Position numbers and translations under genes: made by a program. From assembly GCA_021373175.1 (NCBI GenBank), contig JAJFTE010000075.1:1-36048 (forward strand): DNA of 36,048 nt, written 5' to 3'. Shown piece by piece: positions 16,053 through 33,321 of the stretch. Source of the stretch: Actinomycetes bacterium. GTDB taxonomy: Bacteria; Actinomycetota; Coriobacteriia; Anaerosomatales; Anaerosomataceae. Each line of letters opens with the position of its first letter. The stretch's first letter is position 1. Below the pieces are notes generated by a model. The model did not search any database. It was given only the letters and a program-made list of their open reading frames with translations, and was not told the DNA's origin.

Positions 16053-16991
16053 CTACAGCTCCGCGAGCGCCCCCCTTGCGACCTCGCGGACGGCTGCGCG
16101 CACCTCGGCGGGCTCGATCGCGTCGATCATGCCGAGACCGGCGGCCACCCGTCTCGCTACCCAGGTGGCCGAGGAGTATGGCACCTCGGCGAAGATGGCG
16201 CCGTTCGGTTTGACGCTGAAGGTAGCGCCCGGCCAGTCGCGCTCTTCGGTGTGGGGCGCCGTGGGCGCCAGGCGCAGCACGGCGATCGGCAGGCCCGCGG
16301 CGGGCATCGACACGCTCGCGTCGATCGACACGGACGGTTGGAAGCGCTCGCCGGTCGCTTCCGCTTCGCGGATGCGGTCGAGCCTGAACGTACGCATCGC
16401 GCACGCGCTCTCGCAGTATGCGTTCACGTACCACGCGCCGCGGTCGTTCGCGAGCGCATGTGGGCAGATGACGCGTTCGGAATGCGTGCCGCTTCCCGCC
16501 GAGAAGTACCCGATGCGCACCTTCGTGCCGGTCTCGATCGCCTCGGCCAGCACGGCGTAGATGCCGACGACCGGCGCGCTCGCGTCGCCCGCACGAAGCG
16601 TCGCGGCAAGCTGGGCGGGGTCGAGTTCAGCCGAGGCGATCGTGAGCAGCTTCGTGACCAGCGGATCGTCGGCGGCGTGACCGGCGGCCTCGAGCGCCGC
16701 CACGAGCGCGCGCGCCTCTCGCGGCGCGAGCCGGACAGGGCGTTCGAGCGCGGGCGGCGCGCTAAGCACAGTGACGGTGTCGCCGTCGATAGCGAGGTCG
16801 ATCATCTCGTCGGGGGTGAAGGGCGGCACACCGCAGAACGAAAGCGCGGTCAGATCCCCCGCCACCTGGGACGTGGTCGCTCCGACCGCCGAGGCCAGCT
16901 CGGCCAGCTCAAGCGTCTCGCCCTGGCGGAGGTAGGGCAACAGCGCCAGCATCCGGCGCGCGTGCATGGCGGTGTTCTGCTTAGCGGTCAT
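16053..16991 (-). CDS. pafC: WYL-domain transcriptional regulator, PafC-like
   Basis: A 312-residue regulator, the second gene of a PafB-PafC pair. It has an N-terminal winged helix (about 5-60, MHARRMLALLPYLRQGETLELAELA), a central WYL domain with GAWYVNAYC near 190, and a C-terminal WCX-like extension. In mycobacteria PafBC forms a heterodimer that activates the LexA-independent DNA-damage response. The start ATG at 16991 overlaps the pafB stop by 11 bases, so the two are coupled. The WYL motif here reads WYV, as in many PafC proteins. No proteasome or Pup ligase gene is next to it, unlike the mycobacterial locus. The target promoters in this organism are unknown. Confidence 0.85.
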   Translation of the reverse strand: MTAKQNTAMHARRMLALLPYLRQGETLELAELASAVGATTSQVAGDLTALSFCGVPPFTPDEMIDLAIDGDTVTVLSAPPALERPVRLAPREARALVAALEAAGHAADDPLVTKLLTIASAELDPAQLAATLRAGDASAPVVGIYAVLAEAIETGTKVRIGYFSAGSGTHSERVICPHALANDRGAWYVNAYCESACAMRTFRLDRIREAEATGERFQPSVSIDASVSMPAAGLPIAVLRLAPTAPHTEERDWPGATFSVKPNGAIFAEVPYSSATWVARRVAAGLGMIDAIEPAEVRAAVREVARGALAEL

Positions 16992-17949
16992 GGCGTGCGA
17001 GCACCTCCTGAAGGCCCATGCGAAACGCATCCACGATCGCTGCCGGCTCAAGCGGCGTGACCCCAGGCCCGTGTTCGACGCACCACGCCGCAAGCGCCCT
17101 CGCGTCGCCGGCGCGCACGCGCCACAGGGCGCCGCCATCCGGCTGCTCCTCGATCACCCCGTTACCGCCCGAGAGGCGCGGTGCACGCCACGCGTCTTCC
17201 GCCGAGAATCGTACGACCGCGTCAAACGGCTCCGGGCCGTACTGGAACGGCAGGAGCGAGTACTCGGCAACAGAGAACCACTCGGGGCGCTCGAAGTCGG
17301 GCGTCCTGGGGGCGACCGGGTTCACGGTAAGGTGCGTCGCGCGCTTGAGGGCGTACACGCGAATCTCGCCGATGGAGGTGTCGAGCCCCACGAGATACCA
17401 GCGACCTTCCCGGAAGAAGATGCCGTACGGCGCCGCCTCATGCAGACGCGCTTCGCCCTTGGCGTTCGTGTAGTCGAACGTGAGCAGCTTGCGTGCGGCG
17501 ATGGCTTCGGCGGCAAGAGCTGCCGAGGCGCCTTGCGCGCGTGGATCTTCGTCCACGAGCGCTGTCGCGACAGCCACGGGCGGCGCAGCGCCCTGGCCGA
17601 GCTTGGCGAGCGCGATGGTGAGGTCCGCTGCGAAGGGAAAGGCTTCATCGACCGCCAGCGCGGCGACAGCGGTACGGATCGCGGCGGTCTCCTCGGCGCA
17701 AAGCGTGAGACTGCCCGCGAACGTTCGGGTGCGATTGACGCGGTAGCGCCCGTCCTCATCCACGTCGACAGCGATGCCAGCCGCGCGCAGCGCATCCTTG
17801 TCGCGCTCGAACATGCGCAGAAAGGCCGCTTCATCCTGGTCTTCGGGATAGCCGAGGCCCTCGCCGCGCAGCTCTTCGGCGGAGACGAAGCGCGGGGTCT
17901 TCGCGAGAAAGAGCGCCAGGTTCACGAGGCGCTCACCGGGATCAGGCAC
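16981..17949 (-). CDS. pafB: WYL-domain transcriptional regulator, PafB-like
   Basis: First gene of the PafBC pair, 322 residues. The N-terminal winged helix (PGERLVNLALFLAKTPRFVSAEELR and YPEDQDEAAFLRMFERDKDALRAAGI) is followed by the WYL domain (GRWYLVGLDTSIGEIRVY, about 195-212) and a WCX domain. The GTG at 17949 has GGGGAGGAAC directly upstream. It is expected to work with PafC as a DNA-damage-responsive activator, sensing nucleic acid signals through the WYL domain (known for the family). Upstream lie a -10-like TAGAAT and a terminator-like hairpin, both on the minus strand. Confidence 0.87.
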   Translation of the reverse strand: MPDPGERLVNLALFLAKTPRFVSAEELRGEGLGYPEDQDEAAFLRMFERDKDALRAAGIAVDVDEDGRYRVNRTRTFAGSLTLCAEETAAIRTAVAALAVDEAFPFAADLTIALAKLGQGAAPPVAVATALVDEDPRAQGASAALAAEAIAARKLLTFDYTNAKGEARLHEAAPYGIFFREGRWYLVGLDTSIGEIRVYALKRATHLTVNPVAPRTPDFERPEWFSVAEYSLLPFQYGPEPFDAVVRFSAEDAWRAPRLSGGNGVIEEQPDGGALWRVRAGDARALAAWCVEHGPGVTPLEPAAIVDAFRMGLQEVLARHDR

Positions 17950-31711: not shown

Positions 31712-31787
31712 GCGGACGTAGCTCAGTTGGCAGAGCGAGAGCTTCCCAAGCTCTAGGTCGCGGGTTCGAGACCCGTCGTCCGCTCCA
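31712..31787 (+). tRNA. tRNA-Gly (anticodon CCC)
   Basis: Complete cloverleaf of 76 bases. Acceptor stem GCGGACG pairs with CGTCCGC; D arm GCTC...GAGC; anticodon stem AGAGC/GCTCT with loop TTCCCAA, anticodon CCC; T arm GCGGG-TTCGAGA-CCCGT; discriminator T and encoded CCA. CCC reads the GGG glycine codon. The gene is intact. Confidence 0.95.
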
Positions 31788-31890: not shown

Positions 31891-31911
31891 TATGATACGA
31901 ACACAAGTTCG
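31891..31911 (+). promoter_or_regulatory. LexA-like box overlapping a -10 region, upstream of the M23 peptidase gene
   Basis: A -10-like TATGAT (31891-31896) is followed by CGAAC-ACAA-GTTCG (31898-31911), a perfect inverted repeat with a 4-base spacer. It matches the core of the LexA/SOS box of Gram-positive bacteria (CGAAC-N4-GTTCG). It lies over the probable start site, about 48 bases before the ATG, a position suited to repression. Confidence 0.6.
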
Positions 31912-31958
31912 ATGCCGCTGCCCCTCACCTCCCGGCGGATGTCCGATCGGGGTGCATC

Positions 31959-32885
31959 ATGGGGTGGCGGCGTTTGGTCTCTCGGACAGGCTTGCTTGCA
32001 CTGACGATGGCGCTGGTGTCTGGCGTCGCCGTCGCCGTGGCGGCTGGCGGATTCACACGACCGCTCGGGGGAGATGTCGTGCTGCGTTTCGGCGTGGTGT
32101 ACCGCACGGCGGACCGGCAGAAGACGCACCGGGGCATCGACATCGAGGGCAATGCCGGCGAAAGCGTGCTCGCCGCGGCGGACGGGGTGGTGACGTTCGC
32201 GGGCGAGGTGCCCGCCGACGTCGGCGGCCGAACGAATGCGGTCACCATCCGTACCGCCGAAGGGCTGCTTGTCTGTGTCATGCCGCTTGAGCGTACCTGC
32301 GTGGGAACGGGCGACACCGTGAGCGCGAGCAGCAGGCTTGGAGAGCTTGCGGCGAGCGGAGACGCGTCATCGCCGGGCGGGCACGTGCACCTCAGCGTGC
32401 GAGAGAACGGAGCGTATATCGACCCGGAACCGTTGTTCGAGTGTGCCCCGGGCGCGAGTGTCAGCACCGATGTTGGCGGCAGCGGCACTCAGGCCTCTGA
32501 GGCGGGCGAGACAGCCGTGGGCGGCAGTACGAGCCTGTGCCCGGCGCGAACCCGTCGTGCCGCCGCCGCCTTCACGCGAAGCGCGCCGGTCGCTAGTCCT
32601 TGCGGTGCGGCACCGGCGCTGTCCGCCCGTCAGACCGAGGCGCTCCGCGATGCGTTTTCCGCCGAGGTCTCGCGGCTCCGATCGAGTCGAGGGCGCCTGA
32701 ACGCGATTGGCTTCGCCGAGCCGAGTCTTGCCGACCTGACGGTTGCCGCAGTTCGGCGTTCGGCGGCGGTGCCACCCGTCGAGAGTGCTGGGATCGGGCT
32801 GGTGGGGGCGAGCGTGCTCGCGCTGGCAGTCGTACTCGGGCGCCGACGGGCGCCGTCGTCCGTCGGTGCCCAAGAGCGTGCGTGA
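31959..32885 (+). CDS. M23 (LytM-type) peptidoglycan endopeptidase
   Basis: A 308-residue cell-wall hydrolase. It has an N-terminal signal segment (9-29), an M23 domain at about 35-160 with zinc ligands H57 and D61 (THRGIDIEG) and H142-V-H144 (GGHVHLS), a low-complexity serine/alanine linker, and a C-terminal membrane span at about 279-293 with a basic tail. The complete HxxxD/HxH set suggests an active enzyme or LytM-like activator. The ATG at 31959 has only a weak SD (GGGGTG). A LexA-like box overlaps the presumed promoter, so it may be an SOS-induced wall hydrolase (see findings). Confidence 0.85.
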   Translation: MGWRRLVSRTGLLALTMALVSGVAVAVAAGGFTRPLGGDVVLRFGVVYRTADRQKTHRGIDIEGNAGESVLAAADGVVTFAGEVPADVGGRTNAVTIRTAEGLLVCVMPLERTCVGTGDTVSASSRLGELAASGDASSPGGHVHLSVRENGAYIDPEPLFECAPGASVSTDVGGSGTQASEAGETAVGGSTSLCPARTRRAAAAFTRSAPVASPCGAAPALSARQTEALRDAFSAEVSRLRSSRGRLNAIGFAEPSLADLTVAAVRRSAAVPPVESAGIGLVGASVLALAVVLGRRRAPSSVGAQERA

Positions 32886-32923
32886 TTGGGGGAAGCGTGG
32901 GGTGTCAGAGCCGGGGGCTATCG

Positions 32924-32952
32924 TTGTGGACGCGGCGCGACTCTGGTACACT
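32924..32952 (+). promoter_or_regulatory. rpsF operon promoter
   Basis: TTGTGG (32924-32929) and TACACT (32947-32952) are separated by 17 bases, with a TGG extended -10 element. The start site near 32959 precedes the structured rpsF leader. Confidence 0.6.
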
Positions 32953-33027: not shown

Positions 33028-33321
33028 TTGAAGGCTTATGAACTTATGCTTGTTCTCAACCCCAGCCTTGATGAAGAGGCGCGGGGGTCCGTCCTGGAGA
33101 AGACCAGGGGCGTGATCACCGACGACGGGGGTGTCGTCGATTCCGAAGATGCCTGGGGTAAGCGCCGTCTCGCTTTCGAAATCGACAAGCAGACTGACGG
33201 TGACTACAACGTCGTCATGTTCCACGCGACAACCGCCGCCATCGCCGAGCTCGACCGCGTCCTGCACATCACTGACCCGGTCATCCGCTTTATGATCCTT
33301 CGTCGCGACGATCTTTCGTAG
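33028..33321 (+). CDS. rpsF: Ribosomal protein S6
   Basis: A 97-residue S6 protein of the 30S subunit. It begins KAYELMLVLNPSLDEE and has the WGKRRLAFEIDKQTDGDY segment typical of S6. The start is TTG at 33028 with GGGAGGTGA upstream; the frame has no closer ATG. It leads the conserved rpsF-ssb-rpsR-rplI cluster. S6 pairs with S18, encoded two genes downstream. Confidence 0.95.
   Translation: MKAYELMLVLNPSLDEEARGSVLEKTRGVITDDGGVVDSEDAWGKRRLAFEIDKQTDGDYNVVMFHATTAAIAELDRVLHITDPVIRFMILRRDDLS

Follow-up and report, generated by a model that had tools for sequence, protein, structure and literature searches.

The M23 locus and its neighbours

The window, that is, the whole stretch of 36,048 nucleotides that was analysed, contains an open reading frame (31959-32885, + strand) for a 308-residue, putatively LexA-controlled and membrane-tethered protein with a LytM/M23 domain, here called the M23 protein. 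Its upstream neighbour is tRNA-Gly(CCC) (31712-31787, +; ARAGORN), which occupies the same place in nearly all loci of the order, and its downstream neighbour is rpsF (33028-33321, +), the first gene of rpsF-ssb-rpsR, which has a promoter of its own; the synteny tRNA-Gly, M23 gene, rpsF and ssb is kept across the order. Upstream of the M23 gene stand a TATGAT hexamer (31891-31896, +), presumed to be the -10 of its promoter, the LexA box CGAACACAAGTTCG (31898-31911, +) and a C-rich 5' leader (31912-31958, +). The preliminary description had placed a CGAAC-ACAA-GTTCG-type box just after a TATGAT -10, and this is how positions 31891-31911 read, with a single base, A, between the hexamer and the box. 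The end of the box lies 47 bp from the start of the reading frame (31959), and a GGGG run provides a plausible ribosome-binding site. The hexamer, read from the sequence, is absent from the promoter-scan list, and the scan gave no good -35 hexamer to partner it, so that the promoter call is carried by the -10 together with conservation.

The leader can pair with the ribosome-binding site, but not clearly above shuffled sequences. When this pairing was predicted for orthologs of the order, leaders were less accessible than simple shuffles in 46 of 53; the stems were barely above dinucleotide shuffles (combined p 0.049), they were not kept in register in MAFFT alignments of the leaders, and Rfam gave no match besides tRNA. 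A leader hairpin masking the ribosome-binding site was thus rejected as a candidate feature.

At the other end of the gene, the rpsF promoter (GTTGC..., TACACT) overlaps the M23 stop codon in many families (loci L038-L086), and in the window its -10 lies near 32947-32952. This promoter, lying over the end of the M23 gene, accounts for a conserved C-terminal peptide, VAA.V.R; the tail, present in 21 of 61 proteins, had been considered as a C-terminal degron and was discarded, since at this place the DNA forms the -35 part of rpsF's promoter. Outside the M23 unit there is also a TGTCAGA-N9-TANNNT element (32903-32924, +), a candidate PafBC-type promoter of rpsF-ssb. The genome contains 11 copies of this pattern and none of its reversed form, and such elements precede ruvC, an sbcD-like exonuclease gene, a YneA-like gene, a gene for a 131-residue protein, an mraZ-like gene and rpsF-ssb (all named by eye, save the YneA-like gene; sites besides that of the window include G000:C16:12917, C74:36080, C112:2411, C129:29078 and C64:30390). 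A PafBC role for the element is a guess from the kind of genes that it precedes and from the PafBC pair of the window. That pair, already noted from the sequence, is confirmed by Pfam domains: PafC HTH, WYL and a weak WCX at 16053-17138, and WYL and WCX at 16981-17949.

The putative LexA regulon of the genome

The genome encodes one LexA and one clear recA. Read by eye, the visible part of LexA retains an Ala-Gly site for cleavage as well as the Ser and Lys that self-cleaving LexA proteins have. Pattern searches of the genome, from which all regulon counts come, found exact CGAAC-N4-GTTCG upstream of lexA, recA, uvrA and a uvrD-like helicase gene. The preliminary description had made its reading of the box depend on the motif at recA and lexA, and the operator upstream of the M23 gene agrees with both. 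Further exact sites lie upstream of the gene for the 131-residue protein, which is of no known family, and in an intergenic position near a dnaE2-like polymerase region, while two more, within coding sequence, look incidental. The 36 kb window contains a single perfect 5-4-5 motif, against 0.07 copies expected from shuffles; genome-wide, exact sites number 9 against 12 for a reversed-pattern control, which is no excess. Raw counts of this kind do not settle the matter, and the case for the box is made by its position and its conservation.

As a separate observation, the 131-residue protein (G000:C112:2293-2405; L007, L008) has no Pfam or NCBIfam match, and its gene has one LexA box between the TGTCAGA element and the start and a second box within the gene.

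Conservation of the box within and outside the order

In the 69 genomes of the order that were searched for the M23 protein, a match was found in 61, and 60 of these belong to one and the same locus, either complete or truncated at the end of a contig, with tRNA-Gly(CCC), the M23 gene, rpsF and ssb. The match left out of the 60, L088 in genome G046, is another M23 gene. In 54 of the 60 orthologs, the roughly 125 bp before the M23 gene contain a box of at least 9/10 (44 exact, 10 at 9/10), and the orthologs with a box span 13 of the 14 families of the order; a clear box is missing in six, one of which (L045) is near a contig start. The upstream windows, 9.4 kb in all, contain 57 boxes of at least 9/10, and 266 kb of surrounding DNA contain 20, none of them exact, so that the density of boxes at the M23 gene is about 80 times the local background. 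The columns of the box arms mostly hold 1.5-2 bits and the flanks average 0.2-0.3 bits: the flanks have decayed and the box has not. Since the sequences of the order share kinship, the 54 boxes are not 54 independent events. A smaller alignment, used as a query among named genomes, gave eight named relatives, including 'Coriobacteriia bacterium' and 'Coriobacteriaceae bacterium EMTCatB1'; cultured Gram-positive members have been described for the order Anaerosomatales/OPB41, which presumably corresponds to the order studied here (PMC9686372). As the genome motif agrees and 54 of 60 genomes keep an operator in front of the ortholog, LexA control of the M23 gene (31959-32885), as first proposed, appears nearly certain from the sequences.

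Outside the order, a class sample of 396 genomes gave a clear M23 ortholog in 17, all from other families, and in these 17 the gene stands directly upstream of rpsF and ssb, as it does in the order. None of the 17 has a box of at least 9/10 in the 250 bp upstream of the M23 gene. A match to PF01726 was found in 16 of the 17 genomes; that of G083 is weak and not clearly lexA. Of the other genomes with such a match, most of those with a readable lexA upstream region carry the motif there, exact or with one change and often in several copies, and G072 has only a weak form of it. As the class orthologs lack the box though most keep the motif at lexA, SOS control of the M23 gene appears to be specific to the order; the box may have been gained in the order or lost elsewhere, two alternatives given here without ranking. 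The occurrence of the gene without a box outside the order also implies that its basic role is not bound to the SOS response.

Domains, topology and catalytic site of the M23 protein

Pfam Peptidase_M23 (PF01551) matches residues 56-156 (32124-32426, +) with 63 bits, against a cut-off of 28.7. An AlphaFold2 model made from nine sequences has a confident domain at about residues 31-160 and a helix at 276-296, with a linker that is modelled poorly. In structural comparison, where Z values within 1 of each other count as ties, the domain scored 19.2 with EnvC (rmsd 2.0, 125 aligned), 18.8 with DipM, 18.7 with Csd3, 18.6 with StM23 and 17.7 with LytM. Together, the Pfam score and these Z values identify an M23 (LytM/lysostaphin) fold, and because enzymes and regulators tie at the top, the fold cannot separate one from the other. 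A signal peptide is predicted for residues 1-28 (31959-32042, +), with an RR n-region, an AVA-type end and a helix at 3-26 in the model. The C-terminal membrane span announced in the preliminary description is real: residues 276-296 (32784-32846, +) form a hydrophobic helix in the model and are followed by RRR, and a hydrophobic C-terminal segment is present in most orthologs. The model and sequence thus suggest an order of signal peptide, LytM domain, long linker and C-terminal membrane span, and the product is very probably a membrane-tethered LytM protein.

The catalytic site was compared in 71 orthologs, 54 from the order and 17 from the rest of the class. The zinc ligands H57, D61 and H144, and also H142, are invariant (71/71), so that every ortholog has the HxxxD and HxH zinc site of active M23 endopeptidases. 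In an alignment with solved M23 sequences, however, the His of YAHL falls on Pro109 (codon CCG, 32283-32285, +). This is the place of the catalytic-base residue H260 of LytM, and it is Pro in 71/71 orthologs; the equivalent of LytM H291, H142, is kept. Both H260 and H291 are essential in LytM (PMC5519744), and only one of the two is therefore represented here. Three other M23 proteins of the genome and two paralogs from other genomes have His at the H260 place. D135 (68/71) and S137 (71/71), near the HxH motif, are conserved and particular to this ortholog family. Of the earlier name, M23 endopeptidase, the M23 part holds by its fold, and the enzyme part is made insecure by the invariant Pro at the catalytic-base position. 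Catalysis by the protein is thus uncertain from its sequence: the retention of all zinc ligands counts against a purely regulatory domain, and the loss of the catalytic His counts against a normal enzyme.

A YneA-like gene in the same genome

A YneA-like gene for a single-span LysM protein is divergent from lexA across LexA boxes (L010, about 1780-2300; G000:C74, near 36000). Its product scores 26 bits for LysM and 40.9 bits for NCBIfam YneA, below the cut-off of 60. Judged by sequence and placement, this gene is the ordinary Gram-positive arrangement of an SOS division inhibitor here. Since the genome has it, the M23 protein would join it as a second SOS protein that faces the wall, rather than replace it, and the earlier idea of a different solution to division delay gives way to that of an addition.

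Proposed function and alternative explanations

The whole is best explained, with reasonable probability, by a membrane-tethered LytM-domain wall protein of the SOS regulon with an altered catalytic site. The box, the regulon motif, their conservation, the domain and the residue change are sequence observations, and repression, topology, wall target and an effect on division are inferred as follows. LexA bound at 31898-31911 would cover the likely transcription start and block the M23 promoter; upon DNA damage, RecA would trigger the self-cleavage of LexA and the gene would be switched on. The product would then be exported by means of its signal peptide, held by the C-terminal transmembrane helix, and a long flexible linker would let its LytM/M23 domain face the cell wall. 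As the zinc site is kept and the catalytic-base His is Pro, it may be a wall hydrolase of a non-canonical kind, or else a LytM regulator that contains zinc and controls other wall enzymes. The likeliest outcome would be delayed division, or altered wall remodelling, during DNA repair, alongside the YneA-like LysM protein. Such a role is the leading functional proposal because the architecture is shared with the SOS division inhibitors of Gram-positive bacteria, which are membrane-anchored and wall-facing (PMC6851548), and it is plausible, if somewhat short of an even chance.

Two other explanations accept the SOS control and differ in what the domain does. The protein may be an active M23 endopeptidase that loosens the wall, so that damaged, non-dividing cells keep elongating, with a group such as D135 replacing the missing His. 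The invariant zinc ligands and H142 speak for it, as a dead domain would need none of them, and so does the conservation of D135 and S137; the Pro in every ortholog, at one of two positions that are both essential in LytM (PMC5519744), speaks against it and leaves it rather unlikely. A non-catalytic LytM regulator like EnvC or DipM, which under SOS control would switch septal amidases or other autolysins by binding, has a similarly low probability. Such domains are known to regulate division (PMC10336132), the catalytic His is lost, and EnvC and DipM are the best-ranked structures, though tied with active enzymes, but the zinc site is intact here whereas DipM keeps one of three ligands (PMC10336132).

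The remaining two concern the box itself. It could serve mainly rpsF-ssb, with SOS read-through raising the amount of single-strand DNA binding protein and the M23 gene as a passenger, which would suit the damage-related ssb and the presence of rpsF-ssb after the M23 gene wherever the contig is long enough. The box, however, stands immediately before the M23 start, and rpsF has a conserved promoter of its own overlapping the M23 stop as well as the candidate PafBC-type element, which makes this explanation improbable. A chance match, with the M23 gene free of LexA control, would agree with the genome count of 9 against 12, and is effectively refuted by a box that is a conserved island in 54 of 60 orthologs, about 80-fold over background.

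Under the preferred explanation, a SOS-regulon wall protein with an altered catalytic site, the cells of this order of little-studied Gram-positive bacteria probably respond to broken DNA by altering how they divide or how their wall grows. More tentatively, the family may be a new Coriobacteriia LytM/M23 subfamily, with a zinc site and a Pro for the catalytic-base His, that one order has recruited for a checkpoint under LexA control; there the protein, with its C-terminal anchor, would act beside a YneA-like inhibitor, by a chemistry or partner control that has no known counterpart among M23 proteins. Beyond a few LysM-type proteins, little is understood of the way in which Gram-positive bacteria halt division once their DNA is damaged, and clear homologs of the known SOS division inhibitors are reportedly missing from Streptomyces (PMC9380542). 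A LexA-controlled LytM protein conserved across an order is a concrete second candidate for such a stop, sister lineages with the same gene and no LexA control offer a natural comparison, and the exchange of His for an invariant Pro raises a well-defined biochemical question on M23 catalysis.

Comparison with known systems

The M23 protein resembles YneA, ChiZ (Rv2719c), DivS and SosA in its LexA control, single membrane anchor and wall-facing domain (PMC6851548). Those proteins are commonly encoded beside lexA and have either LysM or no recognised domain, whereas the M23 protein is encoded at rpsF-ssb and combines a LytM/M23 domain with a signal peptide at its N-terminus and an anchor at its C-terminus; Pfam found no LysM in it, and its gene does not adjoin lexA. 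SosA and DivS also lack LysM, so that LysM and a lexA neighbourhood are soft marks of the group. A partial coverage of the literature joining LexA or SOS with M23 peptidases or LytM gave no SOS-controlled M23 protein.

With the M23 peptidases of the LytM/lysostaphin family, the protein shares the fold and the HxxxD/HxH zinc site, and it differs from them in the invariant Pro at the H260 place and in extra residues in two loops. The regulators EnvC, NlpD, DipM and ActS are similar in having a LytM domain with a changed catalytic centre and are among the top-ranked structures; unlike them, the M23 protein keeps all three zinc ligands, and is membrane-tethered, SOS-controlled and Gram-positive. 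SpoIIQ, too, has a LytM domain without the same catalytic His (Ser in 3tuf), and it is membrane-tethered, as the M23 protein is predicted to be; its first zinc ligand is missing as well (Ser-Lys-Gly at HxG in 3tuf), and it acts in sporulation, not in the SOS response.
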